Below, piece by piece: positions 13,868-28,014 of a stretch of DNA of 64,000 nt. The notes below the pieces were generated by a model. The model did no database searches, had not been told where the DNA came from, and worked only from the letters and a program-made list of their open reading frames with translations. The DNA is from Rathayibacter sp. Leaf185 (GTDB lineage: Bacteria; Actinomycetota; Actinomycetes; Actinomycetales; Microbacteriaceae): the NCBI RefSeq assembly GCF_001423885.1, contig NZ_LMPP01000006.1:62001-126000 (forward strand). The letters are read 5' to 3'. The translations under genes were made by a program, and so were the position numbers. Numbering within the stretch: position 1 is the stretch's first letter; every line of letters starts with the position of its first letter.

Positions 13868-15928
13868 TCAGTTCGCGACGCGAAGCGAGACCGCGGGGCT
13901 GACGCCCACGTTCCCGGCCTTGTCCTGCGCCCGAGCGGTGATCGCGTAGGTGCCGTTCGGGTAGGCGGCCGAGCTCGCCGAGAGCGCCCAGGTCCCGTTC
14001 GACTGCGCCACACCGTTGCCGAGCTTGGTGGTGCCCGCGTAGAAGACGACGGAGGTCACTCCGACGTTGTCACTCACCGTGGCCACGAGCCGGATGGATC
14101 CGGCGACGGTAGTGCCCGAGGAGGGCGAGGTGATGCGAGCGGTCGGCTTCTCCGTGTCCGTCGGTCCGGAGGTCGGGCTCGCGGTCGGCGACGCCGTCGG
14201 CGATGCCGTGGGGCTCGAGGTCGGCGCGGGCGTCGAGCTGGCGGCGACGCGCAGCGAGATCGCGGCACTGGTGGCCGTGTTGCCCGCCGCGTCCTGGGCC
14301 CTGGCGGTCACCGCGTAGGTGCCGAAGGGGTACCCGGCGGTGCTCGTCGAGAGCGCCCACGAGCCGTCGGCCTGCTGCGTGCCGTTGCCGAGCTTGGTCG
14401 TGCCGGCGTAGAAGGCGACGGCGGTCACTCCCACGTTGTCGCTCGCGGAGGCGACGAGCCGGAACGAACCGGCGACCGTCGTTCCCGTGGCGGGCGAGGT
14501 GATCGAGACCGTGGGCTTCTGCGTGTCCGTGGTCGGGGGCGTCGTGGGAGGAGTGGTCGGCGGCGTCGTGGGCGGCGTCGTCGGGGGCGTCGTCGGCGGC
14601 GTGGCGTCCGTCGGGACCGTGCTCACGGCGTAGCCGAAGTAGCGGCCGCTGATCGGGTTGGTCGGGTCGCCCTTGAAGGTGCGGCCGCGCTCGGTGGCGG
14701 ACTTGGCCTGCGCGACGATCTGCGCGCGGACCTGCGCGGGGCTCTTGCCGACGCAGGACCCGCCGGAGCTGAGGCAGTCGAGGACGACGCCGCTCACCGC
14801 GGCGGCCGACATGCTGGTGCCGGACTGGACGTAGGCCAGCGAGCCGCCGAGCTTGGTGGTGTACGGGCAGACGCCGGGGGCGGCGACCGTGTGGGCACGG
14901 TCGGCGGCCGACACGGCGAAGTTGCTCTTGCCCGCGGTGGTGTCGTCGGCGGTGTCGACTCCGGCGCACGGCGCGGCGGCGAGTCCGCCGGGCTTGCCGT
15001 CGTAGTTGGCGATGTTGGTCGCCGTCAGGACCTCGTCGTAGGCGGCGGGGATGGCCGCGGCCAAGTCCTTGCCGCCCGTCGTGTTGCCGGCCGAGCTGAC
15101 GATCGTGACGCCCTTGGCCTCGAGCTCGCAGACCATCTGGTGGATGACGTCGTTGTTCGAGCGACCGCAGTTGCCGTCGTCGCTGCCCGTCGTGGCGAGC
15201 GACATGTTGACGACCTTGATGTTCTTCGAGGCCGCGTTGTTCGAGACCCAGTCGAGGGCGCAGACGATGCCCTCGGCGGTTCCCTTGTTCTTGTCGTCGA
15301 GCACGCGGACCGAGTAGATCGGCGCACCGGGGGCGATGCCGACCGTGCCGTTGGCGTCGTCGATGGCGGCCATGTAGCCCGAGACGGCCGTGCCGTGCCC
15401 GTTCGTGTCGCTCGCGTCTCCGGAGCCGTAGCAGTTGACCTGCTCGCGGAGGTCGTAGTTGCTGTTCGGGTTCACACCCGAGTCGATGACCGCCACGGCG
15501 GGGCCGTTGTAGTTCGTCACTCCGTCACCGGCGCGGACGGGCGCCTTGTCGGCCTCGGTCGCGAGCACGTGCGAGGGGACGACCTGCGCCTGGCCCTCGA
15601 ACACGACGTCGGCGGGTGCGACGGCCAGCACGCGCGGGTCGGCCTCGAGGGCTGCCTGCTGGCGAGAGGTCAGGGTCGCCGTGAAGCCGGCGGTGCCGCC
15701 CTCGTAGGTGATGAGGTCGCTGACACCGAGGGCGGTGACGAGCTGCTGCGAGACCGACTTCGAGTCCACGGTCACGAGGTAGCGCCCGGCGGTGTCGGCC
15801 TGGGCGGGGGTCGAGCCGGCGACGGCGAGACCGGCGCCGACGGCGACCGCCACAGCGAGGGCCGCGACGCGGCGGAAGAGGGAGCCTGCCGGCGGCGCTG
15901 AGGCCGTGGCGGAGCGGGTGGAGGACAC
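13868..15928 (-). CDS. Secreted S8 (subtilisin-like) serine protease with two Ig-like domains
   Basis: A 686-aa protein. A signal peptide spans about 1-44 (RRVAALAVAVAVGAG, then AQA). A short inhibitor I9-like propeptide lies at about 47-115. The S8 domain (140-430) has the triad Asp149 (AVIDSG), His178 (NGHGTAV) and Ser372 (SGTSMSAAAV), with oxyanion Asn282 (SAGN). A PTTPP-repeat linker follows (about 443-467), then an Ig-like domain (DNVGVTAVAFYAGTTKLGNG), a second linker of SPTASPT repeats, and a second Ig-like domain near-identical to the first, clearly a duplication. There is no LPXTG anchor. It is predicted to be an exported protease whose Ig-like modules hold it near the wall or a substrate. 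Confidence 0.9.
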   Translation of the reverse strand: MSSTRSATASAPPAGSLFRRVAALAVAVAVGAGLAVAGSTPAQADTAGRYLVTVDSKSVSQQLVTALGVSDLITYEGGTAGFTATLTSRQQAALEADPRVLAVAPADVVFEGQAQVVPSHVLATEADKAPVRAGDGVTNYNGPAVAVIDSGVNPNSNYDLREQVNCYGSGDASDTNGHGTAVSGYMAAIDDANGTVGIAPGAPIYSVRVLDDKNKGTAEGIVCALDWVSNNAASKNIKVVNMSLATTGSDDGNCGRSNNDVIHQMVCELEAKGVTIVSSAGNTTGGKDLAAAIPAAYDEVLTATNIANYDGKPGGLAAAPCAGVDTADDTTAGKSNFAVSAADRAHTVAAPGVCPYTTKLGGSLAYVQSGTSMSAAAVSGVVLDCLSSGGSCVGKSPAQVRAQIVAQAKSATERGRTFKGDPTNPISGRYFGYAVSTVPTDATPPTTPPTTPPTTPPTTPPTTPPTTDTQKPTVSITSPATGTTVAGSFRLVASASDNVGVTAVAFYAGTTKLGNGTQQADGSWALSTSTAGYPFGTYAVTARAQDAAGNTATSAAISLRVAASSTPAPTSSPTASPTASPTASPTSGPTDTEKPTARITSPSSGTTVAGSIRLVATVSDNVGVTSVVFYAGTTKLGNGVAQSNGTWALSASSAAYPNGTYAITARAQDKAGNVGVSPAVSLRVAN

Positions 15929-16345
15929 GGATTCCGTCGATTCTGTCGGCGGCGATGGCCGACGGTTCGGTGGTGGAGTGCGAGAAGTCGGGGCGCAGGG
16001 ACCGGGCGCCCGCGCCGCTGCTGCGGGACTCGGGAGGGCGCCGGGAGGCGGCAGTTTCGGGTGAATCCCCCGAGCGAAGACAGGCCGATGACCCGCTCGC
16101 TCCCCCCTTCGGAGTGACTCACCCCCGACTTCAACAGACTTCGGGTCGTTTCACAGCATCGGGGCTGACCCCAGTACGGGGGTGATTTGACCCCCTGTCC
16201 CACAATTGATGACCGTCCACGGCACCCCTCGGGACACTCCGATGCCCGGCCCTCGAAAGCCCCGGTCACAGCGCGGGTTCAGCGACCTTTCGCCCCGCGT
16301 CCACGCGGCTTGACTCGCCCTTCGCGCGGAGTAGTGTCGTCGCTC
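15929..16345. other. 417-bp divergent intergenic region without a gene
   Basis: This region lies between the start of the subtilase (-) and of the permease (+). I see no convincing reading frame. It is less GC-rich than its surroundings at 16120-16220 (ACTTCAACAGACTTCGGG, TTTCACAGC) and contains a small ACCCC-agtac-GGGGT inverted repeat at 16168-16183. The right end holds TAGTGT (16332-16337), a probable -10 box for the permease. Promoters for both genes must lie here; their -35 boxes are not clear. Confidence 0.5.
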
Positions 16346-18487
16346 GTGACACACGAGGCCCCTCCGTCCGACGCGGAGGAATTACCCACCGATCCGAACG
16401 AGCTCCGCACCGCGAAGCACTTCTTCATCGGTGAGCCGCTGCCGAGCGACAAGCTCGAGGGGCAGCTGCTGCAGAAGCGCCTCGCGCTCCCCATCTTCGC
16501 GAGCGACCCCCTCTCCTCCGTGGCCTACGCGCCGCAGGAGCTGCTGATGATCCTGCTGCTCGGCGGGCTCTCGTTCCTCACCTTCGCTCCCTGGGTCGCC
16601 GGCTGCGTCGTCGTCCTGCTCGTCGTGGTCGTCCTGAGCTACCGGCAGCTGATCAAGGCGTACCCGTCGGGAGGCGGTGACTACGAGGTCGCGCGCACCA
16701 ACATCGGCGAGACCGCGGGGCTGACCGTCGCCGCGGCGCTCCTCGTCGACTACGTCCTCACGGTGGCCGTGTCGGTCGCCTCCGGAGTCGACAACATCAT
16801 CTCGGCGGTGCCCGAGCTCGCCCCGCTCCGGGTCGAGCTGGCGATCCTCTTCGTGGTGCTCCTCGCCGCGGTGAACCTCCGCGGCGTCTCGGAGTCGAGC
16901 AAGGCCTTCGCCGTCCCCACCTACCTCTTCGTCGCGAGCGTCTTCGTGATGGTCGTCGTCGGACTCGCCCGCACCGCCTTCGGCGACACCCCGGTGTCCG
17001 AGTCGGCCGGCTTCACCGTCGAGGGCGAGCAGCTCACGCAGGCCGCGGTCGTCCTCCTCCTGCTGCGCTCGTTCGCGAGCGGATGCGCCGCCCTCACCGG
17101 AGTCGAGGCCATCTCGAACGGCGTCCCCGCCTTCCGCGTCCCCAAGGTCAAGAACGCGCAGCGCACGCTCGTCGCGATGGGCACGATCGCCATCACCCTC
17201 TTCGTCGGGCTCACCGCTCTCGCCCTGCTCTCGAACGTGCACTACGCCGAGCGGGCCTGCGATCTGGTCGGCTTCGCGAACTGCGAGACGACTCCGCAGC
17301 GCTCGGTGATCGCCCAGGTCGCCGCCGCCACCTTCGGCAACAACACGATCCTCTTCTTCGTGATCCAGGCCGCCACCGCCGCAGTGCTGCTGCTCGCCGC
17401 CAACACGGCCTTCAACGGCTTCCCGCTGCTGGGCTCGGTGCTCGCCCGCGACGGCTACGCACCCAAGTCGCTGAACACCCGCGGCGACCGCCTCATCTAC
17501 TCCAATGGAGTGATCATCCTGGCGCTCGTCGCCGCGATCATCCTGCTCGTCTACCAGGCGTCGCTGACCAGCCTGGTGCAGCTCTACATCATCGGCGTCT
17601 TCGTCTCCTTCACCCTGGGCCAGTCGGGCATGGTGAAGCACTGGATCCGGATGATCAAGAACGGGGAGGGCTCCCGCACCGTCTACACGAGCCTCGGCAT
17701 CAACCTCTTCGGCGCCACCCTCACCTTCGCCGTGCTCGTCGTCGTCACGATCACGAAGTTCACCCACGGGGCCTGGCTCGTCTACCTCGTGATGCCGATC
17801 CTCGGCTTCCTGATGGCGGGCGTGTACCGCTACTACCGCGATGTCGAGAAGGAGATCGAGGTCGACCCGACCACGACCTTCGGAGCCAACGGCGACCACG
17901 CGATCGTGCTCGTCGGCCGGATGAACAAGCCGACCCTCAAGGCGCTCGACTACGCGATCGCCGCGCGGCACGAGAGCCTGGAGGCGGTGCACTCCTCCAT
18001 CGACGACGCGCAGACCGCGCAGCTCAAGGCCGACTGGGCGAGCATGGACATCGAGGTGCCGCTGCGCTGCATCGCCTCGCCCTACCGCGACATCTCGTAC
18101 CCGCTGATCAAGTACATCAAGGCGCACCGCCTCGAGCACGGCTCCGAGATCATCACCGTCTACATGCCGCAGTACATCGTCGGGCACTGGTGGGAGACGC
18201 CCCTCCACAACCACAAGTCGCGGCGGATCCGCCAGAAGCTGCTGCTCGTGCACGGAGTGACGGTGGCGCTGGTGCCGTGGCTGCTCGACTCCTCCGAGGT
18301 GATCTACGGACGCCGCTCGCGCCCGATCCCCGGGCAGACGCGCCGCGGCGAGCCGATCCGCCCGGTGACGCGCCGCCCGATCCCGCCCGCCTCGGTGCTC
18401 CCCAAGGGTGCCGCGGGCGAGGGCGCACCGCGCAGGCCCGCGGAGCGGCCCTCGGCTGCCGCGCGCAATCGCGCCAAGCGCCGCTGA
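16346..18487 (+). CDS. APC-superfamily permease with cytoplasmic C-terminal domain
   Basis: A 713-aa protein. Residues about 50-480 form 12 hydrophobic helices of an APC-type permease (SDPLSSVAYAPQELL, AYPSGGGDYEVARTNIGETAGL, GVEAISNGVPAF). After them comes a ~230-aa cytoplasmic domain (HAIVLVGRMNKPTLKALDYA, EIITVYMPQYIVGHWWE) of the kind fused to KUP/APC-like potassium or amino-acid permeases in actinobacteria. Two GTG codons compete. GTG 16346 is chosen because TAGTGT, a good -10 box, ends 8 bp before it, which suggests a leaderless mRNA; GTG 16334 would lie inside that box. Substrate not determinable. Confidence 0.8.
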   Translation: MTHEAPPSDAEELPTDPNELRTAKHFFIGEPLPSDKLEGQLLQKRLALPIFASDPLSSVAYAPQELLMILLLGGLSFLTFAPWVAGCVVVLLVVVVLSYRQLIKAYPSGGGDYEVARTNIGETAGLTVAAALLVDYVLTVAVSVASGVDNIISAVPELAPLRVELAILFVVLLAAVNLRGVSESSKAFAVPTYLFVASVFVMVVVGLARTAFGDTPVSESAGFTVEGEQLTQAAVVLLLLRSFASGCAALTGVEAISNGVPAFRVPKVKNAQRTLVAMGTIAITLFVGLTALALLSNVHYAERACDLVGFANCETTPQRSVIAQVAAATFGNNTILFFVIQAATAAVLLLAANTAFNGFPLLGSVLARDGYAPKSLNTRGDRLIYSNGVIILALVAAIILLVYQASLTSLVQLYIIGVFVSFTLGQSGMVKHWIRMIKNGEGSRTVYTSLGINLFGATLTFAVLVVVTITKFTHGAWLVYLVMPILGFLMAGVYRYYRDVEKEIEVDPTTTFGANGDHAIVLVGRMNKPTLKALDYAIAARHESLEAVHSSIDDAQTAQLKADWASMDIEVPLRCIASPYRDISYPLIKYIKAHRLEHGSEIITVYMPQYIVGHWWETPLHNHKSRRIRQKLLLVHGVTVALVPWLLDSSEVIYGRRSRPIPGQTRRGEPIRPVTRRPIPPASVLPKGAAGEGAPRRPAERPSAAARNRAKRR

Positions 18488-18547
18488 CCGGGCAGCCGAC
18501 CGACGCCGCCCTCAGCGGGCAGAGCCGCTCGTCAGCGGGCAGAGGTA

Positions 18548-18577
18548 GAGGGCCCGCGGCTCAGCCTGCGGGCCCTC
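18548..18577 (+). terminator. Terminator hairpin after the APC permease
   Basis: GAGGGCCCGC (18548-18557) pairs with GCGGGCCCTC (18568-18577), 10-nt loop, followed by GATTTTCC-like sequence. It lies 60 bp after the permease stop. Confidence 0.75.
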
Positions 18578-18665
18578 GATTTCCCCTTGTGCCTTCCCCC
18601 GAAGGCGGCCCGCCCCAACGGGCCACCTCGACGGTATCGGCGGGCTATGCACCGCCGCATCCTCC

Positions 18666-19469
18666 TCACGACGGATCCGCGCCCACTTCTGGACGAGGCG
18701 CCGCCGGACGGGTCGCCGACGAGAAGCCGAGGCGCCACAGCACCGCCACGCCGACGATCGCCACGACGCTCCAGGTGACGACGAGGATCGCCGCGTCGAC
18801 GACGTACGAGCGGTACGCCTCCTCGAACGGGTCGAGGCCGGTGCCCGCGAGCACGACGCCGGCCGGCACGACCGCCGCCGCGAGCACGGCGGTCCAGGCG
18901 GCGAGACGGGCGGGCCCTCGCGCGTCGGTCCCGATCAGGTGCGGCTTCCGCGTGACGTACCAGACCGCCGCGCCGATCACGAGGCCGAGCAGCCCGAGCA
19001 CTCCACTCGCGTACTGCGCCCACTTGTAGGCGGGGAACGGGCCGATCTGCTCCAGGAGGAACGGCGCCGCCGCCACGAACGGACCACCCAGGTGCGTGAA
19101 GCCGTCCCACAGCACGTGACTCGCCGATCCGATCACGAGCCCCGCCGCCGCCAGGAGCAGCGCCGAGACCCACGCGCGCGCACCCCTCGGCCGCGGCGCG
19201 GGCGGGCGGAGGCGCACCCGCACGATCCAGGGGGCGAGGTCGCGCCAGGCCGGGGCGAGCAGCAGGTTCCACAGCACGAGGCAGACGGCGCCGAGGAGCA
19301 GGTCGACCGTCACGACGCCGAGGAGCGAGTGCGTCGACTCCCGCGCCCACCGCACCGGCAGGTAGAGCCCGATATCGGGAGTCATGGCGCCGACGGCCAC
19401 TGCGGCGGCAGGGATCCGCCCGTTCGAGAACGCCAGCGCGACGACGGCGTGGCTGGGGGTGAACGGCAT
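18666..19469 (-). CDS. DUF4184-family membrane protein
   Basis: A 267-aa protein beginning MPFTPSHAVVALAF at ATG 19469, the conserved N-terminus of the DUF4184 family (MPFTxSHxA). It has about six transmembrane segments, with conserved GAMTPDIGLYLP, STHSLLG and SASHVLWDGFTHLGG, whose His/Asp pattern resembles membrane metal-dependent hydrolases. The family has no established function. TACCGT lies 5 bp before the ATG on the minus strand, a possible leaderless promoter. The upstream start extensions lack such homology and were not used. Confidence 0.8.
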   Translation of the reverse strand: MPFTPSHAVVALAFSNGRIPAAAVAVGAMTPDIGLYLPVRWARESTHSLLGVVTVDLLLGAVCLVLWNLLLAPAWRDLAPWIVRVRLRPPAPRPRGARAWVSALLLAAAGLVIGSASHVLWDGFTHLGGPFVAAAPFLLEQIGPFPAYKWAQYASGVLGLLGLVIGAAVWYVTRKPHLIGTDARGPARLAAWTAVLAAAVVPAGVVLAGTGLDPFEEAYRSYVVDAAILVVTWSVVAIVGVAVLWRLGFSSATRPAAPRPEVGADPS

Positions 19470-19592
19470 AGTGCACGGTATCCCGGACACCCCGCCCGCG
19501 GTCGACCGATCGCGGGGAGCTCCGAGCGGCGCGACCGTAGAATCGCACGATGGTCCGGCCCCACCGGGCGGGGTGCGACGGATCGGAGCGGT

Positions 19593-20312
19593 GTGCGGAA
19601 GGCGTTCGCGATCCTCCGGCTCGCTCTCGCGGGCATCGGAGTCGTCGGGCTCGTCGCCGACTTCCTCTACACGCTCGGCTTCCGCGCCTTCCAGATCGAC
19701 AACTTCTTCGCGTACTTCACGACGCAGTCCAACATGGCCGGAGTCGTCGTGCTCGCCCTCTCGGGGCTCGCCACCCTCGCTCGCGAGCGCGAACCGCGCT
19801 GGCTGAGCGGCGTGCGCGCGCTGGTGCTGACCTACATCGTCGTCTCGGGGATCGTCTTCGGACTCATCGCGGTGGAGGCGAACAACCGCGGGGTGCGCGT
19901 CGACGTGCCCTGGTCGAGCGCGCTCCTGCACTTCGTCATCCCGACCCTGGCGGTCCTCGACTGGATCCTGGCCCCTGGCCGGCAGCCGGTCCGCTGGCGC
20001 GCCGCCCTCACCGTCCTCGGCTTCCCGGTCGTCTGGGGCGTCATCACGCTCGTCCGCGGGGCGCTGATCGGCTGGTACCCCTACTTCTTCCTCGATCCGG
20101 GGCAGGTCGACGGCCCCGTCGCCTTCGTGCTGTACGACGTGATCGTGCTCGGGCTCATCTCGGGCATCGCGGCGTTCGTCGTCGCGCTCAGCCGGGTGCG
20201 ACCGCTCGGTGCCCCCCGCGCGGCGGAGTGGCGGGGCCCGTTCGCGAGGCTGCGCGAGCTCGTCAGCCGGCGACGGTCGCGAACGGCTCCAGCGCCGTCT
20301 GCGCGACCGTGA
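19593..20312 (+). CDS. Pr6Pr family membrane protein
   Basis: A 239-aa protein with six predicted helices. Typical segments are YFTTQSNMAGVVVLAL, PWSSALLHFVIPTLAVLDW and GWYPYFFLDP, which match the actinobacterial Pr6Pr (FAR-17a/AIG1-like) family. No enzymatic function is established. The GTG start at 19593 follows GGAG by 4 bp, and TAGAAT at about 19538 is a likely -10 box giving a short leader. The last 50 bp overlap the 3' end of the convergent amine oxidase gene. Confidence 0.75.
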   Translation: MRKAFAILRLALAGIGVVGLVADFLYTLGFRAFQIDNFFAYFTTQSNMAGVVVLALSGLATLAREREPRWLSGVRALVLTYIVVSGIVFGLIAVEANNRGVRVDVPWSSALLHFVIPTLAVLDWILAPGRQPVRWRAALTVLGFPVVWGVITLVRGALIGWYPYFFLDPGQVDGPVAFVLYDVIVLGLISGIAAFVVALSRVRPLGAPRAAEWRGPFARLRELVSRRRSRTAPAPSARP

Positions 20313-21723
20313 GCAGCTCGTCGTCGCTCAGCGCCTGCAGCGACAGCGCCTGATCGGCCCCGAAGAGTCCGACGAGCACGGCCTCGCCGGTGACCGGCTG
20401 CAGGTTGACCCACTCGGTGATGCCCGCCTCCGAGCCCACGAGCGACCAGCGCGAGGCTGTCACCGCGTCGACGTCCCAGAACGGCTCGTCGAAGCGGAGC
20501 CAGAGCGACTCGACGACTCCGGAGCCCAGTGCCGCGATCGCCGCGCGGTGCGCGAACGGCAGGGCCGGGTCGAACGCGATCGCGTCGCTCTTGAGCACCC
20601 CGATCGGCACGGTGATCAGGACGCGGTCGGCCGTGAACGACTCCCCCGTCGCCAGGCGCACGCTCGCGCCGTCCTCGTCGTAGCCGATGCCGCTGACGGC
20701 GGCTCGGAGCGACACCTCGACATCCTCGAGCAGCGTCTCGACCAGGGGCGCGAGTCCGTTCGCGACGGTGCTGTCGGAGGCGTCGCTCACGTCCTCCGCG
20801 GTGGTCGCGGCGGAGGCGTCGCCCAGCCCGTACCAGGCCGACAGCTCGGCGGGCGCCGCCCCGGTGCGCAGCGCGGCGCCTCCGGCGAGGTAGGCGGCGA
20901 CCCGCTGCGCGTCGCCGTCACCGCTGCCCGGCTCGGCACTCGCCGGGTCGGGCGCGCCCGAGCCCGCGAACGCCTCGGCGAGCGGGAGGTCCTCGGGCTG
21001 CTCGGCGCCCCACTCGAGCGCGCGGGTGAGGGCCTCGGGGCCGGTCTCCTCGGCGTCGAGGTCGGCGCCGTCGGCGGTGACGGAGCGGACGGTCTCGAGA
21101 TCGATCGACGACAGGGCGATGCCCGCGTCGAGCACGCTCTCGCGCAGCGCCGGGCCGGCCTCGGTCAGCGCCCAGGCGCCGGAGTCGACCGCGATCGGCC
21201 AGTCGTCGGGCGTCGAGGTGGCGATGCGCCCGCCGACCCGGTCGCGCGCCTCGACCAGAGTCACGTCGTAGCCGGCGTCGAGGAGGCGGCGCGCGGCGAC
21301 CGCGCCGGCCAGACCCGCGCCGATGATCGCGATCCGCTCGCCGTCGTCGGCGATCGCGGCGATCTCGCCCGCCGCGCGCACACCCGAGTTCCACGCGCCC
21401 TGCAGTGTGGCCGGCGCCTCGGTGTCGGTGGCCTCGCCCGCGAAGAAGAGCCGGTCGAGCACGTTCTGCGCGAGGTCGTCGCGGTGCTCGGGGGTCGCTC
21501 CGACGGGGAGGAAGGAGGCGGAGCCGAGCGAGTACGCGTCGGTGCCCCAGGCGGAGCGGACGAAGGCCGCGGGGGTGGGGACGGCGGTCGTGCTCGGAGT
21601 GGGGACCGGCGCCTTCGTGACGGATCGGGTCGGCGTCGGACGCGGCGGCGTGCACCCCGCGAGGACCAGGACGCCGATGCCCGTGGCGGCTCCCGACAGG
21701 AAGGTGCGGCGTCCGATCGTCAT
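20263..21723 (-). CDS. Flavin amine oxidase-like lipoprotein with circularly permuted C-terminal motif
   Basis: A 486-aa exported protein. The N-terminus has twin arginines (GRRTFLSG) and a lipobox LAGC (Cys24), then a Pro/Thr linker. Residues 59-120 carry WGTDAYSLGSASFLPVGATP and RLFFAGEATD...LQGAWNSGVRAAGE, which in normal monoamine-oxidase-type enzymes is the C-terminal FAD-contacting segment. Only after it comes the Rossmann motif IIGAGLAGAVAARRL (133-147) with VEARDRVGGRI, and the chain stops at the point where the C-terminal motif should begin. So the order is permuted, not truncated. ATG 21723 is chosen because TAGGAT lies 7 bp upstream (leaderless). Predicted periplasmic-face amine or polyamine oxidase; substrate unknown. 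Confidence 0.85.
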   Translation of the reverse strand: MTIGRRTFLSGAATGIGVLVLAGCTPPRPTPTRSVTKAPVPTPSTTAVPTPAAFVRSAWGTDAYSLGSASFLPVGATPEHRDDLAQNVLDRLFFAGEATDTEAPATLQGAWNSGVRAAGEIAAIADDGERIAIIGAGLAGAVAARRLLDAGYDVTLVEARDRVGGRIATSTPDDWPIAVDSGAWALTEAGPALRESVLDAGIALSSIDLETVRSVTADGADLDAEETGPEALTRALEWGAEQPEDLPLAEAFAGSGAPDPASAEPGSGDGDAQRVAAYLAGGAALRTGAAPAELSAWYGLGDASAATTAEDVSDASDSTVANGLAPLVETLLEDVEVSLRAAVSGIGYDEDGASVRLATGESFTADRVLITVPIGVLKSDAIAFDPALPFAHRAAIAALGSGVVESLWLRFDEPFWDVDAVTASRWSLVGSEAGITEWVNLQPVTGEAVLVGLFGADQALSLQALSDDELLTVAQTALEPFATVAG

Positions 21724-21809
21724 CCCCGTCATCCTACGTTCTCGCGCTCGCCCCCGGGCCGATGGCAAGGCCGCGCGGATGCTCGGCCCGCAGTGGTAGG
21801 ACTAGGGGC

Positions 21810-22091
21810 ATGAGCAACGACATCCGCGAACTCTCCGAGGGCGAGAGCTATCTCGCCTTCTTCCAGGGCGGGCCGTTCGACGGCCAGACCGAGACCCGTG
21901 TCAGCACCGAGGGCGGCTACGAGAAGGAGGTCGACGTCTATGCGGCCGTCGACGGCCAGGAGACGCACCTGGTCTACACCTCCGTCGCCGCGAAGGAGGT
22001 CGGCGAGTCGGTCCACGTGACCTACACGCTCGACACCCCCGACTCCGATCCGATCGAGGACCCGGAGGACCGCGGAGGCGGATTCCAGTAG
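21810..22091 (+). CDS. Hypothetical protein (93 aa)
   Basis: A short acidic protein, MSNDIRELSEGESYLAFFQG, then GPFDGQTETRVS and a run of beta-strand-like segments ending in an Asp/Pro-rich tail. Charge and strand pattern suggest a small soluble cytoplasmic protein. No family is recognised. The ATG at 21810 is 7 bp after TAGGAC, a leaderless arrangement, and the gene is divergent from the amine oxidase, whose own promoter box lies only about 60 bp away. Confidence 0.65.
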   Translation: MSNDIRELSEGESYLAFFQGGPFDGQTETRVSTEGGYEKEVDVYAAVDGQETHLVYTSVAAKEVGESVHVTYTLDTPDSDPIEDPEDRGGGFQ

Positions 22092-22245
22092 CCCGCGCTC
22101 CCTCCTGAGATGCCGTTCCGGTCGCGTTCCGCGCGACCCGAGCGGCATCTCGTTCGTTCGCAGGCGGATATCGACCTCGCCGGTATGGTCAGCGCTAAAC
22201 TGACAGTTCCTCATCTGCGGTACCGCGACTCGACAGGGAGCCATC

Positions 22246-22779
22246 GTGACAGCGCACTCCTCATCGACGCCCCTGCGCGACTCCGCCGCTCGCGACTGGC
22301 TGCTGGCCCGCGGGGTGCTGGCCGGGCACGCCCCAGCCCTCACCCTCGTCCCGCAGGAGTGGACGACGCCCGGCGTGGTCCTCCGCCGCCTCTGGCTCAC
22401 CGCCGCGGAACTGCGACGCGCGGGATCGGATGCCGGGGCGACGCTGCTCGTTGTCCCGCTCGAGGGCGTCGTCACGTTCACGACGCAGGGCGGGGCGACC
22501 GCCGAGCTCGGGAGGGGCCGGCTCGCCGCGCTCCCCGCCTCCGCGACCCTCACGACCGCAGCGCCGAGCGCTCGCCTCGAGCTGCTGAGCCGCAGACCCG
22601 GCCCCGCCCCGGAGCCGGCCGTCCTCGCCTCCCCGGCGCTCCCGGTGCTCATCGCCACGGCCAACGCGATCCTCGACGGCCCGCGCGACCCCGACGAGCC
22701 GAGCCGTGCCGGGCTCGGCAGCGCTCTCGAGAGCCTCCTCACCGCGGTGCTGGCCGGCTCACCCCGTGACGGTTTGTGA
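22246..22779 (+). CDS. AraC-type cupin effector domain without a DNA-binding domain
   Basis: A 177-aa protein from GTG 22246. The sequence (LWLTAAELRRAG, LLVVPLEGVVTFTT, LPASATLTT, then GLGSALESLLTAVLAG) resembles the N-terminal cupin-like effector domain of AraC-family activators, including the helix that usually leads into the DNA-binding part. The chain ends there; no helix-turn-helix follows in any frame before the peroxiredoxin gene 83 bp on. It may be a decayed regulator or a stand-alone sensor. Function unknown. Confidence 0.6.
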   Translation: MTAHSSSTPLRDSAARDWLLARGVLAGHAPALTLVPQEWTTPGVVLRRLWLTAAELRRAGSDAGATLLVVPLEGVVTFTTQGGATAELGRGRLAALPASATLTTAAPSARLELLSRRPGPAPEPAVLASPALPVLIATANAILDGPRDPDEPSRAGLGSALESLLTAVLAGSPRDGL

Positions 22780-22862
22780 CCCTTCCCGGGGTGAATCGGA
22801 GGCGTCGCTCCTACGATCGCGCCGGGGACGGCCGATCGACGGCCGCCCGGACGGAGACGACG

Positions 22863-23531
22863 ATGCCCACCGAGCAGACCACCTCGACGATCGGCGCCCA
22901 GTCCGCCGAGTTCACCACCGGCTTCACCGAGACCATCGGCGACGAGCTCGCCGCGGTCTTCGCGGCCGAGCAGGCCGACCTGGTGTCCAGCGGAGTCCCC
23001 GACGGCGCCGTCTCGGTCGGCGACCGGCTGCCGAGCGCGACGGTCGTGACCGCCGGCGGCGAGACCGTCCACCTCGCCTCCGTCCTCGGCCGGGGAGCGG
23101 CGGTGCTCGTGTTCTACCGCGGCGCCTGGTGCCCGTACTGCAACCTCACCCTGCGCCACTACAACGCCACCCTCGCCCCCGAGCTCGCGGAGCGCGGCGT
23201 CACCCTGGTAGCCGTCAGCCCGCAGACGGCCGACGCCTCCGCATCGGTCGCGGACGGCGAGCTCGGCTTCACCGTCGTCACCGACCCGGGGAACGTGCTG
23301 GCGGCCGAGCTCGGCATCGTCACCGCCCCGAGCGAGGCCGCCATCGACGCGCACACCCGGCTCGGCTTCGCGGTCAAGGACTCCAACGCCGACGACACCG
23401 CCGCGATCCCGTTCCCGACGGTGCTGGTGCTCGACGAAGCCGGAGTCGTGCGGTTCGCCGACGTCCACGTCGACTACACGACGCGCACCGAGACCGAGGA
23501 GATCCTCGCCGCGGTCGACGCGATCGTGTAA
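22863..23531 (+). CDS. Peroxiredoxin-like (AhpC/TSA) protein
   Basis: A 222-aa thioredoxin-fold protein. The active site is FYRGAWCPYCNLTL, with Cys90 and Cys93 in a CxxC, which differs from the single peroxidatic Cys of typical AhpC and is common in the AhpC/TSA-like YPR-type group. An N-terminal helical extension (1-50) precedes the fold. It has a GGAG site 6 bp before the ATG. Likely role: thiol-dependent reduction of peroxides or disulfides in the cytoplasm. It is followed by a hairpin and then by an alpha/beta hydrolase of the haloperoxidase type, which hints at shared oxidative-stress use. Confidence 0.8.
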   Translation: MPTEQTTSTIGAQSAEFTTGFTETIGDELAAVFAAEQADLVSSGVPDGAVSVGDRLPSATVVTAGGETVHLASVLGRGAAVLVFYRGAWCPYCNLTLRHYNATLAPELAERGVTLVAVSPQTADASASVADGELGFTVVTDPGNVLAAELGIVTAPSEAAIDAHTRLGFAVKDSNADDTAAIPFPTVLVLDEAGVVRFADVHVDYTTRTETEEILAAVDAIV

Positions 23532-23539
23532 CCAGTCCG

Positions 23540-23570
23540 GGGAGGGGCTGTCAAGGGTCCCTCCCCTCCC
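23540..23570 (+). terminator. Terminator-like hairpin after the peroxiredoxin gene
   Basis: GGGAGGGG (23540-23547) pairs with CCCCTCCC (23563-23570) nine bases after the stop. Short stem, so moderate support. Confidence 0.5.
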
Positions 23571-23650
23571 AGCCTCCTCCCCATCCGCGCCGTCACGCTC
23601 CTTCGAACACACCATGACGCCGAGGCACGGCGCCGGAAGGAGCACGACTC

Positions 23651-24487
23651 ATGGCAGAGATCACCGCCCACCACGGACTCTTCAAGGACACCGACCTCCA
23701 CGTCGACGACACCGGCGGCTCGGGCCGTCCGATCGTCCTGATCCACGGCTGGCCCCTCTCGGGCGAGTCCTGGAGCGAGCAGGTCCCGGCCCTCACGGCC
23801 GCCGGATACCGCGTCGTCACCTACGACCGCCGCGGCTTCGGACGCAGCGACAAGCCGCTGACCGGCTACACCTACGACACCCTGACCGAGGATCTGCACA
23901 CGCTGCTCACCGAGCTCGACCTGCAGGACGTCACCCTCGTCGGCTTCTCGATGGGCGGCGGCGAGGTCGCCCGCTACTTCTCGAAGTACGGCGCCGAGCG
24001 TCTGCACAGCGTCGTCTTCGCCTCCGCGGTGCCGCCGTACCTGATGAAGACCGACGACAACCCGGAGGGCCCGCTCGAGAAGTCGGCGGCCGCCGAGATG
24101 ACGGCCGGCCTCACGAAGGACCAGGACGCCTTCTACGACCAGTTCACGACCGAGTTCTTCTCGGTCGACGGCGTCCTGAAGGTCACGGAGGCGCAGCGTC
24201 AGGACGCGCTCGCCCTTGCGAAGCAGTCGTCCAAGCACGCGGCGCTGGCCTGCATGACCGCGTTCGCGACCACCGACTTCCGTGAGGACCTGCCGAACGT
24301 CTCGGTCCCCGCGCTGGTCATCCACGGCGACGGCGACGGCACCGTGCCGTTCGAGGGCTCCGGTGCACGCACGCACGCCGCGATCCCCGGCTCCGAGCTG
24401 TACGTCGTCGCGGGCGCCCCGCACGGCGTCAACGTGAGCCACGCGGAGGAGTGGAACCGGGTCGTCCTCGAGTTCCTCGCCGAGTAG
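23651..24487 (+). CDS. Alpha/beta hydrolase, non-haem haloperoxidase-like
   Basis: A 278-aa alpha/beta hydrolase. The nucleophile Ser100 lies in VGFSMGGGEVARY, the acid is in HGDGDGTVP (Asp227/229), and the base is His258 in AGAPHGVNVSH. The oxyanion region is HGWPLSGESW. YDRRGFGRSDKP matches the bacterial chloroperoxidase/perhydrolase (non-haem haloperoxidase) group, in which halogenation is a side activity of a perhydrolase or esterase. GGAAGGAG precedes the ATG. It is monocistronic, between two hairpins. Confidence 0.85.
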   Translation: MAEITAHHGLFKDTDLHVDDTGGSGRPIVLIHGWPLSGESWSEQVPALTAAGYRVVTYDRRGFGRSDKPLTGYTYDTLTEDLHTLLTELDLQDVTLVGFSMGGGEVARYFSKYGAERLHSVVFASAVPPYLMKTDDNPEGPLEKSAAAEMTAGLTKDQDAFYDQFTTEFFSVDGVLKVTEAQRQDALALAKQSSKHAALACMTAFATTDFREDLPNVSVPALVIHGDGDGTVPFEGSGARTHAAIPGSELYVVAGAPHGVNVSHAEEWNRVVLEFLAE

Positions 24488-24499
24488 AGCGCCACGGCC

Positions 24500-24537
24500 C
24501 GGAGGGGGCGCTCCGCTGCGGCGGGGCGCCCCCTCCG
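24500..24537. terminator. Bidirectional terminator between convergent genes
   Basis: GGAGGGGGCGC (24501-24511) pairs perfectly with GCGCCCCCTCC (24526-24536), with a closing C-G pair outside. It lies 13 bp after the hydrolase stop and 26 bp before the end of the convergent ABC operon. Confidence 0.75.
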
Positions 24538-24562
24538 TCGTCCCCGCTGGCGGACGCCGGCG

Positions 24563-25477
24563 TCAGCCCTTCTCGGCGCCCTCGGTCGTGTTCATGATCC
24601 GCTTCTGGAAGACGAAGAACAGCACGGCGACCGGGATCGACATCAGTACCGCGGCTGCGAGCTGCAGCGGGTACTGGTTGCCAGTGCCCAGCTGCCCCGA
24701 CACCAGCGAGGCGACCCCGGTGGTCAGGGTGTTCAGCTCCGGCGACTGCCGCGACACCACGAAGTGCGAGAACTCGTTCCACGAGCCCTGGAACGACAGG
24801 ATGAACAGCGTCACGATCGCCGGACGCGCCATCGGCACCACGATCGACCGGAAGGTGCGGAACACTCCCGCCCCGTCGATCCGGGCGGCCTCCTCGATCG
24901 ACAGCGGGATCGAGTCGAAGAACTGCTTCATGATGAAGATGCCCGCCGCGTCGACGATCAGCGGCACGATCATCCCGGCGTAGCTGTCGTAGAGGCCCAG
25001 CTGCTTGAGGATCAGGAATCGCGGGATCAGCAGCACCACGGCGGGCACGCTCATCACGCCGATGAAGAGGGCGAACAGCAGCCCGCGACCGCGGAAGCGC
25101 AGCCGCGAGAGCGCGTACCCCGCGAGCGAGTCGAAGAAGACGCGGCCGACGGTCACGAACACCGTCACGATCACCGAGTTCAGCGTCCAGAGCGGCAGCG
25201 GCACGTCGGTGAAGAGGCGCTCGTAGGAGGCGAACGACCAGGTCGCGGGCAGCAGGGACAGCGGGTTCGCGGTCGCGTCGGAGTCGGTCTTGAACGACGA
25301 CGCCACCGAGATGAGGAACGGGTAGATGTAGACCAGCGCGAGCCCGATCAGCAGCAGGTAGCCGCCGATGAGCGACGCGCGACCGCGGGCGCCGAGGCGG
25401 ACGCGACGGTGCGGGACGCGGGCGGGAGGCTCCTCCCGGGGCGGGACCTCGGTGCGGTCGGACACGAGCGTGCTCAT
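24563..25477 (-). CDS. Carbohydrate ABC transporter permease (MalG type)
   Basis: A 304-aa protein with six helices. The EAA loop EEAARIDGAGVFRTFRSIVV is the contact site for the ATPase. The layout (LLIGLALVYIYPFLISVASSFK near the N-terminus, and MSVPAVVLLIPRFLIL) is that of CUT1-family MalG-like permeases. The ATG overlaps the stop of the upstream permease gene by 4 bp (ATGA at 25474-25477). No ATPase gene is present in the operon; CUT1 systems in actinobacteria often share one MsiK-like ATPase encoded elsewhere. Confidence 0.9.
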   Translation of the reverse strand: MSTLVSDRTEVPPREEPPARVPHRRVRLGARGRASLIGGYLLLIGLALVYIYPFLISVASSFKTDSDATANPLSLLPATWSFASYERLFTDVPLPLWTLNSVIVTVFVTVGRVFFDSLAGYALSRLRFRGRGLLFALFIGVMSVPAVVLLIPRFLILKQLGLYDSYAGMIVPLIVDAAGIFIMKQFFDSIPLSIEEAARIDGAGVFRTFRSIVVPMARPAIVTLFILSFQGSWNEFSHFVVSRQSPELNTLTTGVASLVSGQLGTGNQYPLQLAAAVLMSIPVAVLFFVFQKRIMNTTEGAEKG

Positions 25478-26580
25478 CGCACACCTCCCGTGGTGAGGGT
25501 CGTCGCGGCGTCGGCGCGAGCAGAGCGGCCCAGGCGCTTGCGCGGCTCGCCCTTCTCCCGGAGGAGCGCGCGCTGCAGCAGCGTGAGGACGACGATGATG
25601 AAGAACAGGATGAAGGCGATCGCGGCGCCCTGGCCCCAGCGCAGATCGGTGAACGAGGACTCGTAGGCGAGGTAGGCCGGGGTGAGCAGCGTCTTGCCGG
25701 GCGATCCGCCTCCGGTCAGGTAGATCTGGTCGAACACCTGCCAGGTGCCGATGAGGCCCAGGGTGAGCACCGTGAAGAGCGTCGGCCGCAGCATCGGCAG
25801 CGTCACCGAGAAGAACTTCCGGAGGGGACCCGCGCCGTCCATGAGCGCCGCCTCGTCGATCTCGGCGCCGATGTTCTGCAGCGCTGCGAGGAACAGCAGC
25901 ATGAACGTTCCCGAAGTGGTGAAGATCGCCATCGTGATCAGCACGCACATCGCGACGGAGGGTCCCGACAGCCAGTCCCACCAGGTGAGCCCGAGCGGGC
26001 CGGCGGCGGTGGAGCCCGAGCCGTCGATCCCGAGAGAGCCGAGCAGGGTGTGCAGCACGCCGGTCGGGTCCGCCATCCAGGTCGGCCCGTCGGCCCCGAA
26101 CCAGCCGAGCACGGCGTTGACGACGCCCGAGGCGCTGAAGAGGAAGAGGAAGATCACGGTGATCGCGATCGACGAGGTGACCGAGGGGAAGTAGAACGCG
26201 GTGCGGAAGAAGCCGCGCCCGCGCAGGATCCGCCGGTTGACCTGCACCGCGAGGAACAGTGCGAGCGCGGTCTGCAGCGGCACGACGAGCAGCACGTAGT
26301 AGACGTTGTTGCGGATCGCGGTGCCGAAGTCCTTCTGCGCGAGACCGGAGTCGAGCAGCACGGCGCGGTAGTTGTCGGCGCCGACGAACTGCGCGGTCGG
26401 GCCCAGCGGCGAGCCGAGCCCGTTCCAGTTGCTGACGCTCACCCAGAGGGCGAGCCCGATCGGGACGACCAGGAACACGCCGATCACCAGGATCGCCGGC
26501 AGGGTGAAGAGCCAGCCGTAGCGGGCCTCGTGCCCGCGGATGCCGGAACGGCGACTCCGCGCGGCGACGGTGGTGCTCAT
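25474..26580 (-). CDS. Carbohydrate ABC transporter permease (MalF type)
   Basis: A 368-aa membrane protein with the EAA loop DEAALMDGAGPLRKFFSVTL. An inserted extracytoplasmic loop of about 60 residues (GADGPTWMADPTGV, GSGSTAAGPLGL) lies between helices 3 and 4, a feature of MalF-like subunits. It forms the heterodimeric channel with the next gene, to which it is coupled by a 4-bp overlap, and lies 78 bp after the binding-protein gene. Confidence 0.9.
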   Translation of the reverse strand: MSTTVAARSRRSGIRGHEARYGWLFTLPAILVIGVFLVVPIGLALWVSVSNWNGLGSPLGPTAQFVGADNYRAVLLDSGLAQKDFGTAIRNNVYYVLLVVPLQTALALFLAVQVNRRILRGRGFFRTAFYFPSVTSSIAITVIFLFLFSASGVVNAVLGWFGADGPTWMADPTGVLHTLLGSLGIDGSGSTAAGPLGLTWWDWLSGPSVAMCVLITMAIFTTSGTFMLLFLAALQNIGAEIDEAALMDGAGPLRKFFSVTLPMLRPTLFTVLTLGLIGTWQVFDQIYLTGGGSPGKTLLTPAYLAYESSFTDLRWGQGAAIAFILFFIIVVLTLLQRALLREKGEPRKRLGRSARADAATTLTTGGVR

Positions 26581-26657
26581 CGATGCGTCTCCTTCGACGG
26601 TCGTGATGCTGGGGGTCCGGGAGGCGGCGGTCGGGTCCGCCGCCCCCCGGAGTCGGG

Positions 26658-27905
26658 CTACTTCGCGTTCGCGGTGTCGAGCGCGTCCTGCAGGTTCGTC
26701 TGCAGATCCGCGAGGATCGCCTCCGGATCGCCCGTCGCCAGGCCCTCGAGCGCCGAGTTGAAGTCGGTGATCACGGTGGCGGCGCCGGCGAACGCGACCG
26801 GGCTGACCGCGTAGTCGTTGCCCGAGACGAAGGCCGCGTTCTCGGGGTACTTCGTCGCGTACTCCGCCGCTCCGGTCTCGGTCGACGGGATCACGCCGAA
26901 CGCGTCGGAGAAGGCGAGCTGCTGCTCGTCGGAGGTCAGCGCGGCGACGAGCGACTCGGTCTGCTCGGCGGTGTCGCTGCCGACCGGGATGCCCCAGCAG
27001 TTGCTGAACGTGAACGTCGACTTCCCGCCCGGGCCGGCGGGGAGCTCGGCGACGGTGTAGTTCACGTCGGGGTAGTCGGCCGCGAGCGCACCGTTGATCC
27101 AGGGGCCCTCGATGACCATCGCGGCGGCGCCCTTGCCGAACGCCTCACCCGACCAGCCGGAGTCGAGGTCGGCCGGGAACTTCAGCGTCCCGGCCGTCAG
27201 CAGCGTCTTGACCTCGGTGAGGCCTGCGACGTTCTCCGGGGTGTCCGCGGTGACCGTCTGGCCGTCCTCCGACAGCAGGGAGCCGTCGGCCTGGTTCATG
27301 AACGTGCCGATGCGGGCGTACTCGGCGCCGAACGAGAGCCCGGTGACGCCGTTCGCCGTCAGCGTCGTCGCGGCGGACTCGAGCGACGCCCAGTCGGTGG
27401 GGATGTCGGCGTCGGTGAGGCCGGCCGCTGCCCAGAGGTCGGTGTTGATGACCAGGCCGAGCGTCGAGAAGTCCTTGGGCTCGCAGTAGAACTGGTCGTC
27501 GTAGGTGAACGCGTCGCGCAGCGCCGGGTAGAAGGCGTCGGCGTTCGAGGAGTCCTGCGCGTAGGGCTCGAGGTAGCGGTTGCTCGCGTAGGTCTGGAAC
27601 TGGTCCCAGCTCATGTAGAAGAGGTCGGGCGGGTTGCCGCCCGAGAAGCCCTGGCCGAGCTGCTGGGTGAGGTCGCTCGCGGCGACCACGTCGACGCTCG
27701 TGCCGTTCTCCTCGCCCCAGCTGGTGACCGCGTCGGTGACGGCGGTGGTCTCGGCGTCCCCGGAGGAGCCGATCATCACGGTGAGACCGGCGGAGTCGCT
27801 CGAGCCGCCGGAATCGCCGCCGCTCGAGCAGGCGGCGAGGCTGAGCATCGTCGCGGTCGCGATCAGTACGGCACCCCATCGTGCCGCGGTGTGGGTGGGT
27901 GTCAT
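26658..27905 (-). CDS. Extracellular sugar-binding lipoprotein of the ABC importer
   Basis: A 415-aa solute-binding protein (SBP family 1). A lipoprotein signal peptide ends at LAAC (Cys26), followed by a Ser/Gly/Asp-rich tether. The mature domain has the two-lobe pattern, with DLFYMSWDQFQTYA, FSTLGLVINTDLW and AAAMVIEGPWI. It captures an oligosaccharide or glycoside on the cell surface and delivers it to the two permeases. It is the first gene of the operon, 95 bp downstream of the LacI gene on the same strand. Confidence 0.9.
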   Translation of the reverse strand: MTPTHTAARWGAVLIATATMLSLAACSSGGDSGGSSDSAGLTVMIGSSGDAETTAVTDAVTSWGEENGTSVDVVAASDLTQQLGQGFSGGNPPDLFYMSWDQFQTYASNRYLEPYAQDSSNADAFYPALRDAFTYDDQFYCEPKDFSTLGLVINTDLWAAAGLTDADIPTDWASLESAATTLTANGVTGLSFGAEYARIGTFMNQADGSLLSEDGQTVTADTPENVAGLTEVKTLLTAGTLKFPADLDSGWSGEAFGKGAAAMVIEGPWINGALAADYPDVNYTVAELPAGPGGKSTFTFSNCWGIPVGSDTAEQTESLVAALTSDEQQLAFSDAFGVIPSTETGAAEYATKYPENAAFVSGNDYAVSPVAFAGAATVITDFNSALEGLATGDPEAILADLQTNLQDALDTANAK

Positions 27906-27955
27906 GGTCGGAGCCTTTCGTGTGGGGATGGCCGCTTCGGGCGCGGCCGGGCGGG

Positions 27956-28014
27956 TCAGTGCTGGTGCGATCAGTGCTGGTGCGATCAGTGCTGGTGCGA
28001 TCAGTGCTGGTGCA
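27956..28014 (-). repeat. Four-copy 15-bp tandem repeat duplicating the lacI stop region
   Basis: The unit TCAGTGCTGGTGCGA occurs at 27956, 27971, 27986 and 28001 (the last copy ends GCA). On the minus strand each 5-codon unit reads CAC CAG CAC TGA in the LacI frame, so the true stop (28003-28001) is followed by three further in-frame copies of the same stop context. It lies between the LacI stop and the binding-protein start. Confidence 0.85.

Follow-up and report, generated by a model that had tools for sequence, protein, structure and literature searches.

The gene at 20263..21723 (minus strand, stop codon included) of the window, by which we mean the whole 64,000-nucleotide stretch of Rathayibacter sp. 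Leaf185 DNA that was analysed, raises the question of whether a flavin amine oxidoreductase can carry its C-terminal FAD segment ahead of its Rossmann motif, and what such a protein would do at the membrane. From the open reading frame, its translation and the family profile PF01593, the 486-amino acid product was identified as a circularly permuted FAD amine oxidoreductase. Residues 51-125 (21349..21573, minus strand) form the displaced segment, which is the C-terminus of the canonical chain, and residues 126-486 (20266..21348, minus strand) form the main part, comprising the Rossmann FAD-binding start and the substrate domain. The displaced segment contains WGTDAYS (residues 59-65), FFAGEATD (residues 93-100; 21424..21447, minus strand), which does not vary among 34 aligned permuted proteins, and GAWNSGVRAA (residues 109-118). 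The dinucleotide-binding motif IIGAGLAG follows at residues 133-140 (21304..21327, minus strand), then EARDRVGGR at residues 158-166, and the chain ends at residue 486. The canonical order, with GxGxxG first and the GEAT segment last, is therefore reversed.

The first-pass annotation had proposed this rotated order and had claimed that nothing is missing from the protein, and both claims were confirmed. In a profile search of its own genome, the piece matching PF01593 positions 368-442 lies towards the 5' end of the gene (56.7 bits, E 5.6e-15) and is followed directly by the piece matching positions 1-363 (139.6 bits, E 1.9e-40). The protein scores 190.2 bits in total against a curated cut-off of 19.8, in two stretches of a model of length 443. 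The pieces leave only four profile positions between them, so a large deletion is absent. Human LSD2, the nearest sequence among solved structures (phmmer, E 9.1e-37), gave the same picture: query 47-123 corresponds to chain 699-775, the C-terminus of LSD2, and query 317-477 to chain 525-690. The protein thus has the complete segment set of the family in rotated order, with its old ends joined, its new ends at a formerly internal site and nothing lost, as in a circular permutant. The rotated PF01593 order exceeds chance, and judged by these profile and sequence matches the protein is a permuted variant within PF01593 rather than a standard member.

A frame error, or a second C-terminal copy further downstream, would have offered a simpler account. 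The gene is open from end to end and the same order recurs in independent genomes, which excludes a frame error, and neither the ORFs nor a six-frame search held a second copy downstream. No ORF of at least 250 residues holding the main part contained two C-segments, and the six-frame search, covering 84 permuted loci and window positions 14001-28000, returned no further C-segment among pieces of at least 20 residues. It did return five partial matches to the main part, all of them weak (11.8-21.8 bits; L178, L179, L185 and L190) and probably other flavoproteins. Duplicated intermediates with C-segments at both ends were absent from the ORFs examined. The long tails of two permuted ORFs, L220 and L223, gave no C-segment match above 8 bits; the tail of L220 may come from reading through a tRNA-like stretch and that of L223 from a frame change. 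Truncation of the window gene was rejected on profile order, ORF classification, the six-frame search and the comparison of loci. Both the C-segment and the main part are under purifying selection, with dN/dS of 0.06-0.54 in seven of seven comparisons.

We analysed the distribution of the rotated order among homologues. Other proteins with GEAT ahead of GxGxxG, whose existence the first-pass annotation had left to be searched for, proved numerous: after removal of identical proteins, 107 of 171 classified homologues were rotated and 64 canonical, a ratio that is not a population frequency because the probe was a permuted profile. This set excludes ORFs that had no C-segment match, as well as seven ORF entries that were short or partial. 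The old termini are joined by 0-11 residues in the 107 rotated proteins, and in 105 of them the chain ends within 24 residues after the main part, at the new end. Our first homologue set comprised 79 loci, taken from the best 80 of 294 stretches, and its 77 classifiable ORFs were permuted in 67 cases and canonical in 10. The permuted ORFs came from Microbacteriaceae (Rathayibacter, Microbacterium, Naasia and others), from Acidimicrobiia, or from records named at the level of Actinomycetales or Actinomycetota; the canonical ten came from Halomonas, Pseudomonas, Ralstonia, Paracoccaceae, Nocardiopsis, Phycicoccus, Verrucomicrobiota and Chloracidobacterium. Within the best 80 of 294 stretches, the closest named relative was Rathayibacter sp. 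VKM Ac-2754 (L009), at 92% identity. We also built a profile from 34 permuted proteins and ran it over 345 whole genomes of the class. Among the matches listed, at least 23 genomes (12 of 17 Microbacteriaceae and at least 11 of 328 others) had a one-piece match running from profile position 1-6 to 382-407, not counting two genomes with fragments only. Whole-genome profile searches identified further permuted homologues in other classes of the phylum.

A sequencing or frame artefact, or a pseudogene, is hardly conceivable against this distribution. Such a reading could point to three Rathayibacter records, namely genome G003, in which the gene is split into two separate matches (L101, L103), genome G014, which has only part of it (L102), and the R. 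tanaceti record L063, which has only its start, at a contig end. It is refuted by conservation, as full-length open copies occur in 13 of 15 Rathayibacter genomes and in many other genera. On the evidence of these comparisons, the rotated order is a real, natural circular permutation conserved in many related bacteria.

We utilized AlphaFold2 to predict the structures of two members, modelled as chains without FAD. The models reached pTM values of 0.89 (window protein) and 0.88, and the displaced segment had pLDDT values of 90-98 over residues 59-120 of the window protein and of 78-95 in the second model. The inputs, of 34 and 19 rows, were drawn from the window and related loci of the first set, and the second consisted of 5 Acidimicrobiia-type and 14 Microbacteriaceae rows; because of these shared sources and Microbacteriaceae rows, the two models are not fully independent. 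Their nearest folds were LSD1 and LSD2. VIA-align placed model residues 77-436 on LSD1 276-738; in chain order the displaced segment had no match, as must be the case in a permutation. The two-domain fold of MAO, PAO and LSD1, with its Rossmann FAD-binding domain, was thereby found for the main part, the only part aligned in chain order. Whole-chain model confidence, together with strong conservation, supports the view that residues 59-120 would complete the FAD domain.

The permuted chain begins with a Tat-type lipoprotein leader, recognised from the sequence (residues 1-24; 21652..21723, minus strand), in which the twin arginine R5R6 is followed by the lipobox LAGC with its predicted lipidated Cys24. 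This leader, already described in the first-pass annotation, recurs widely: in a regular-expression test, 86 of the 107 permuted proteins had a twin arginine with a lipobox, 16 had a twin arginine without one and 5 had no leader pattern, the corresponding numbers for the 64 canonical proteins being 13, 16 and 35. The pattern is that of a Tat-exported lipoprotein, and the protein should accordingly be exported by Tat and lipid-anchored on the outer side of the membrane. The annotation had also placed the displaced segment next to the tether, and this arrangement is general, the lipobox Cys and the displaced segment being 10-38 residues apart in the 86 rotated proteins whose lipobox was recognised. 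Between them in the window protein lies a Pro/Thr-rich linker (residues 25-50; 21574..21651, minus strand). The linker is 81-100% identical to that of six named Rathayibacter relatives despite dS of 0.5-1.2, and its conservation equals or exceeds that of the leader and of the two FAD parts, which is odd for a mere spacer.

The leader stands first in permuted and canonical orders alike, so the rotation would have taken place behind it, most simply via tandem copying followed by internal losses. On trees built from both parts set side by side, the permuted proteins form several groups. The best trees implied three changes of order with 75 rows (a quick tree; 3 of 130 rows dropped, then near-copies), four with 59 rows (16 of those 75 dropped, being long branches or Microbacterium near-copies) and six with 74 rows (27 of 171 dropped, namely L223 and remote canonical proteins, followed by near-copies). 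Branches with good support require at least one change in the 59-row tree and at least two in the 75-row and 74-row trees. A single change appeared in 0% of 200 bootstrap trees for the 59-row and 74-row sets, and the AU test did not reject one permuted clade (p = 0.279 and 0.176, respectively). Among 25 permuted rows outside Microbacteriaceae, the nearest relative was also permuted for 25 of 25 C-segments and 24 of 25 main parts. This result leans to few origins. L218:970-2880 encodes a permuted protein behind a GNAT acetyltransferase domain (PF00583) and without a Tat leader; it sits among canonical rows on a long branch of the 74-row tree, and a canonical copy (L198) is present in the same genome, G933. 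It may represent a separate permutation event.

The same data bear on the idea that the protein is a fusion, in which a truncated amine oxidase received, at its front, the C-segment of another such enzyme, either foreign or encoded nearby. A leader that is still first makes a simple whole-frame rotation insufficient and calls for a tandem copy with internal losses, and the permuted proteins do not fall into one clade on the trees, both of which suit a fusion. Nevertheless, we regard it as improbable, since the nearest C-segment was permuted in all 25 of the rows outside Microbacteriaceae, the six-frame search showed no relics of a C-segment nearby, and the distances of the two parts agree as they do in canonical proteins (Mantel r 0.65 in permuted and 0.56 in canonical proteins, with none of 999 permutations reaching such values). 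In any case, fusion and subsequent loss would yield an identical end product, and the matter concerns origin rather than present function.

Ser406 (codon at 20506..20508, minus strand) occupies the column that we take to be that of the flavin-N5 lysine, on the basis of alignment with LSD2 and maize polyamine oxidase. phmmer aligns residue 406 with a Lys of LSD2, and query 334-417 pairs with residues 228-311 of maize polyamine oxidase over an equal length, which if ungapped equates residue 406 with Lys300, a residue named in the title of entry 3kpf. A K/Q following 'GVL' had also been considered as the catalytic lysine and was dropped for the column aligned with LSD2. All 64 canonical proteins have a basic residue in this column (62 K, 2 R), as do all 35 of the permuted proteins from outside Microbacteriaceae (33 K, 2 R). 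Of the 72 permuted proteins from Microbacteriaceae, 70 have a non-basic residue there (56 T, 7 S, 3 V and one each of M, C, A and L) and 2 have Lys, a count that includes L024 and L059, which are named only to order or phylum and group with Microbacterium in the 74-row tree. Passages of PMC12224317 describe the N5 lysine as nearly universal in the superfamily and as enhancing the reaction with O2, and suggest that its replacement by Glu could partly account for the slowest O2 reaction measured there; passages of PMC12272882 agree that the lysine is key to this reaction. O2-using oxidases of the MAO, PAO and LSD1 type have a lysine hydrogen-bonded through water to flavin N5, and because the window protein has Ser406 at this place we do not file it as an oxidase. 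The name 'amine oxidase' used in the first-pass annotation is thus probably the wrong activity label. The substitution pattern suggests poor oxidase activity in the Microbacteriaceae branch, whose members are most likely dehydrogenases or, failing that, inactive.

Next to the permuted gene, and convergent with it, lies a gene for a Pr6Pr family membrane protein (19593..20312, plus strand, with a GTG start at 19593 as read here), which matches NF038065 at 144 bits against a cut-off of 30 (E 4.2e-42). Its end at 20312 overlaps the 3' end of the permuted gene by 50 bp. The tail-to-tail arrangement occurs in 64 of 66 Microbacteriaceae permuted loci (67 loci minus L063, which has no main part), with -110 to +161 nt between the last sense codons; these loci belong to one family and are not independent. 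Pr6Pr is absent at L015 and about 1.8 kb away at L027. Outside Microbacteriaceae, none of 21 permuted loci had a Pr6Pr gene anywhere in the stretch examined. Among 17 Microbacteriaceae genomes, all 12 carriers of the permuted gene have Pr6Pr beside it. The neighbouring Pr6Pr proteins form one clade apart from their paralogues (support 99/95; 20 neighbour rows and 18 paralogues), and none of nine Pr6Pr genes from five Microbacteriaceae genomes without the permuted gene belongs to it. Eight of these were placed by the tree, and the ninth was excluded by its score of 88.9 bits on a profile built mostly from the neighbour clade, two loci of which scored 229 and 281 bits. The motifs NFxAYxTxxSN, LHFxxP and GWYPYxFLD are invariant in 13 aligned members of the clade. 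An operon partner was looked for and rejected: in that comparison no other neighbour recurred as Pr6Pr does, which was at 55 of 64 loci, the next clusters, which may include spurious frames, being at 19, 12 and 11 of 64. The linkage could nonetheless arise from block loss or from the overlapping 3' ends, without joint function.

Taken together, we favour, with a probability of roughly 0.62, a natural permutant of an LSD1/polyamine-oxidase-like FAD enzyme that is lipid-anchored and that, in the Microbacteriaceae branch, would oxidise amines while reacting poorly with O2 and using another electron acceptor. In this protein the old N- and C-termini are fused by a few residues, and the new ends lie between the last substrate-domain helix and the final FAD-binding segment. 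The chain would fold with FAD in the cytosol before Tat export and lipid anchoring on the outer side of the membrane. As the leader had to remain first, the permutation would have shifted the tether, once attached where the Rossmann fold begins, to the front of the C-terminal segment, a shift that may alter how the enzyme sits on the membrane. Comparison shows that in Microbacteriaceae the N5 lysine was replaced after the permutation, mostly with Thr or Ser, and that a Pr6Pr protein from a separate clade is a constant neighbour. Their enzyme, probably an amine dehydrogenase avoiding O2 to judge from these residues, would oxidise an amine outside the membrane and pass the electrons on, possibly through the Pr6Pr membrane partner. 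A more tentative extension, possible though doubtful, is that the permutation was imposed because the leader must stay first, and that it re-seated the enzyme and so allowed both the lysine loss and a dedicated pairing with Pr6Pr, creating a new two-gene amine dehydrogenase system at the membrane surface.

Several observations count against a dehydrogenase. Loss of the lysine is equally compatible with an enzyme that is weak or dead, the known dehydrogenases of the superfamily mostly retain the lysine (NicA2 carries Lys340) according to excerpts of PMC12224317, and no cytochrome c gene was found by a Pfam scan among six neighbouring genes, so that the adjacency seen with NicA2-type enzymes is missing. 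The Pr6Pr partnership is likewise weakened by the convergent orientation, which places the gene outside an operon. Catalysis might instead have been lost in Microbacteriaceae, leaving an exported, permuted flavoprotein that binds or senses as a lipoprotein together with Pr6Pr. The disappearance of a near-universal lysine from 70 of 72 proteins, its replacement by residues as varied as T, S, V, M, C, A and L, as at a released site, and the constant membrane-protein neighbour all fit this account; we consider it rather unlikely, as the FAD-type motifs are invariant across 34 aligned proteins, purifying selection persists and Thr or Ser is strongly favoured (63 of 72). Less likely still is an ordinary O2-using amine oxidase whose order was permuted by chance, whose lysine loss has little effect and whose neighbour is incidental. 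Its fold and sequence are overall those of amine oxidases, all 35 permuted relatives from other groups than Microbacteriaceae have Lys or Arg at the site, and according to passages of PMC12224317 the majority of tested enzymes that have a Tat leader and no cytochrome c gene close by react fast with O2; however, the residue that passages of PMC12224317 and PMC12272882 treat as key for that reaction is missing from the window protein.

The permuted dehydrogenase that we favour can be set beside well-known relatives. LSD1 possesses histone-binding and tower domains. The window protein shares the FAD amine oxidase domain with human LSD2 and LSD1 (KDM1B and KDM1A), but it is bacterial, has a rotated order, Ser406 in place of the N5 lysine and an export leader, and lacks a histone-binding or tower domain. 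The flavin of MAO is covalently bound. Maize polyamine oxidase (1b37) and MAO A/B belong to the same fold family and have the canonical order, and the maize enzyme keeps the lysine (Lys300, 3kpf title). The Halomonas (L071) and Pseudomonas (L087) enzymes are among the closest canonical matches in the best 80 of 294 stretches, and several canonical bacterial amine oxidases also have Tat-like leaders; in these enzymes the GEAT segment is C-terminal and the lysine is kept, unlike in the window protein. NicA2/Pnao-type amine dehydrogenases have the canonical segment order. They are likewise Tat-exported flavin amine oxidoreductases that avoid O2, but as far as the excerpted text of PMC12224317 goes they have the lysine and an adjacent cytochrome c, both of which the window protein lacks.

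The monoamine oxidase/LSD1 superfamily is among the best studied flavoenzyme families, and our search of open-licence literature found no earlier report of a natural circular permutation in it. Canonical proteins, permuted proteins with the lysine and permuted proteins without it form a natural series in which the relations among chain order, membrane attachment and O2 reactivity can be tested. Comparison tools bound to chain order can misread permuted proteins as truncated or fragmented.

The open-licence literature searched gave no use of the name Pr6Pr. A possible kinship of the family with the AIG1/FAR-17a hydrolases was unsupported by profile searches of Pfam and PDB; the sole PDB profile match, to a lectin (E 0.00058), was judged to be due to chance. 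Window positions 18666-19535 encode a DUF4184 protein with a weak match to zinc-dependent phospholipase C.
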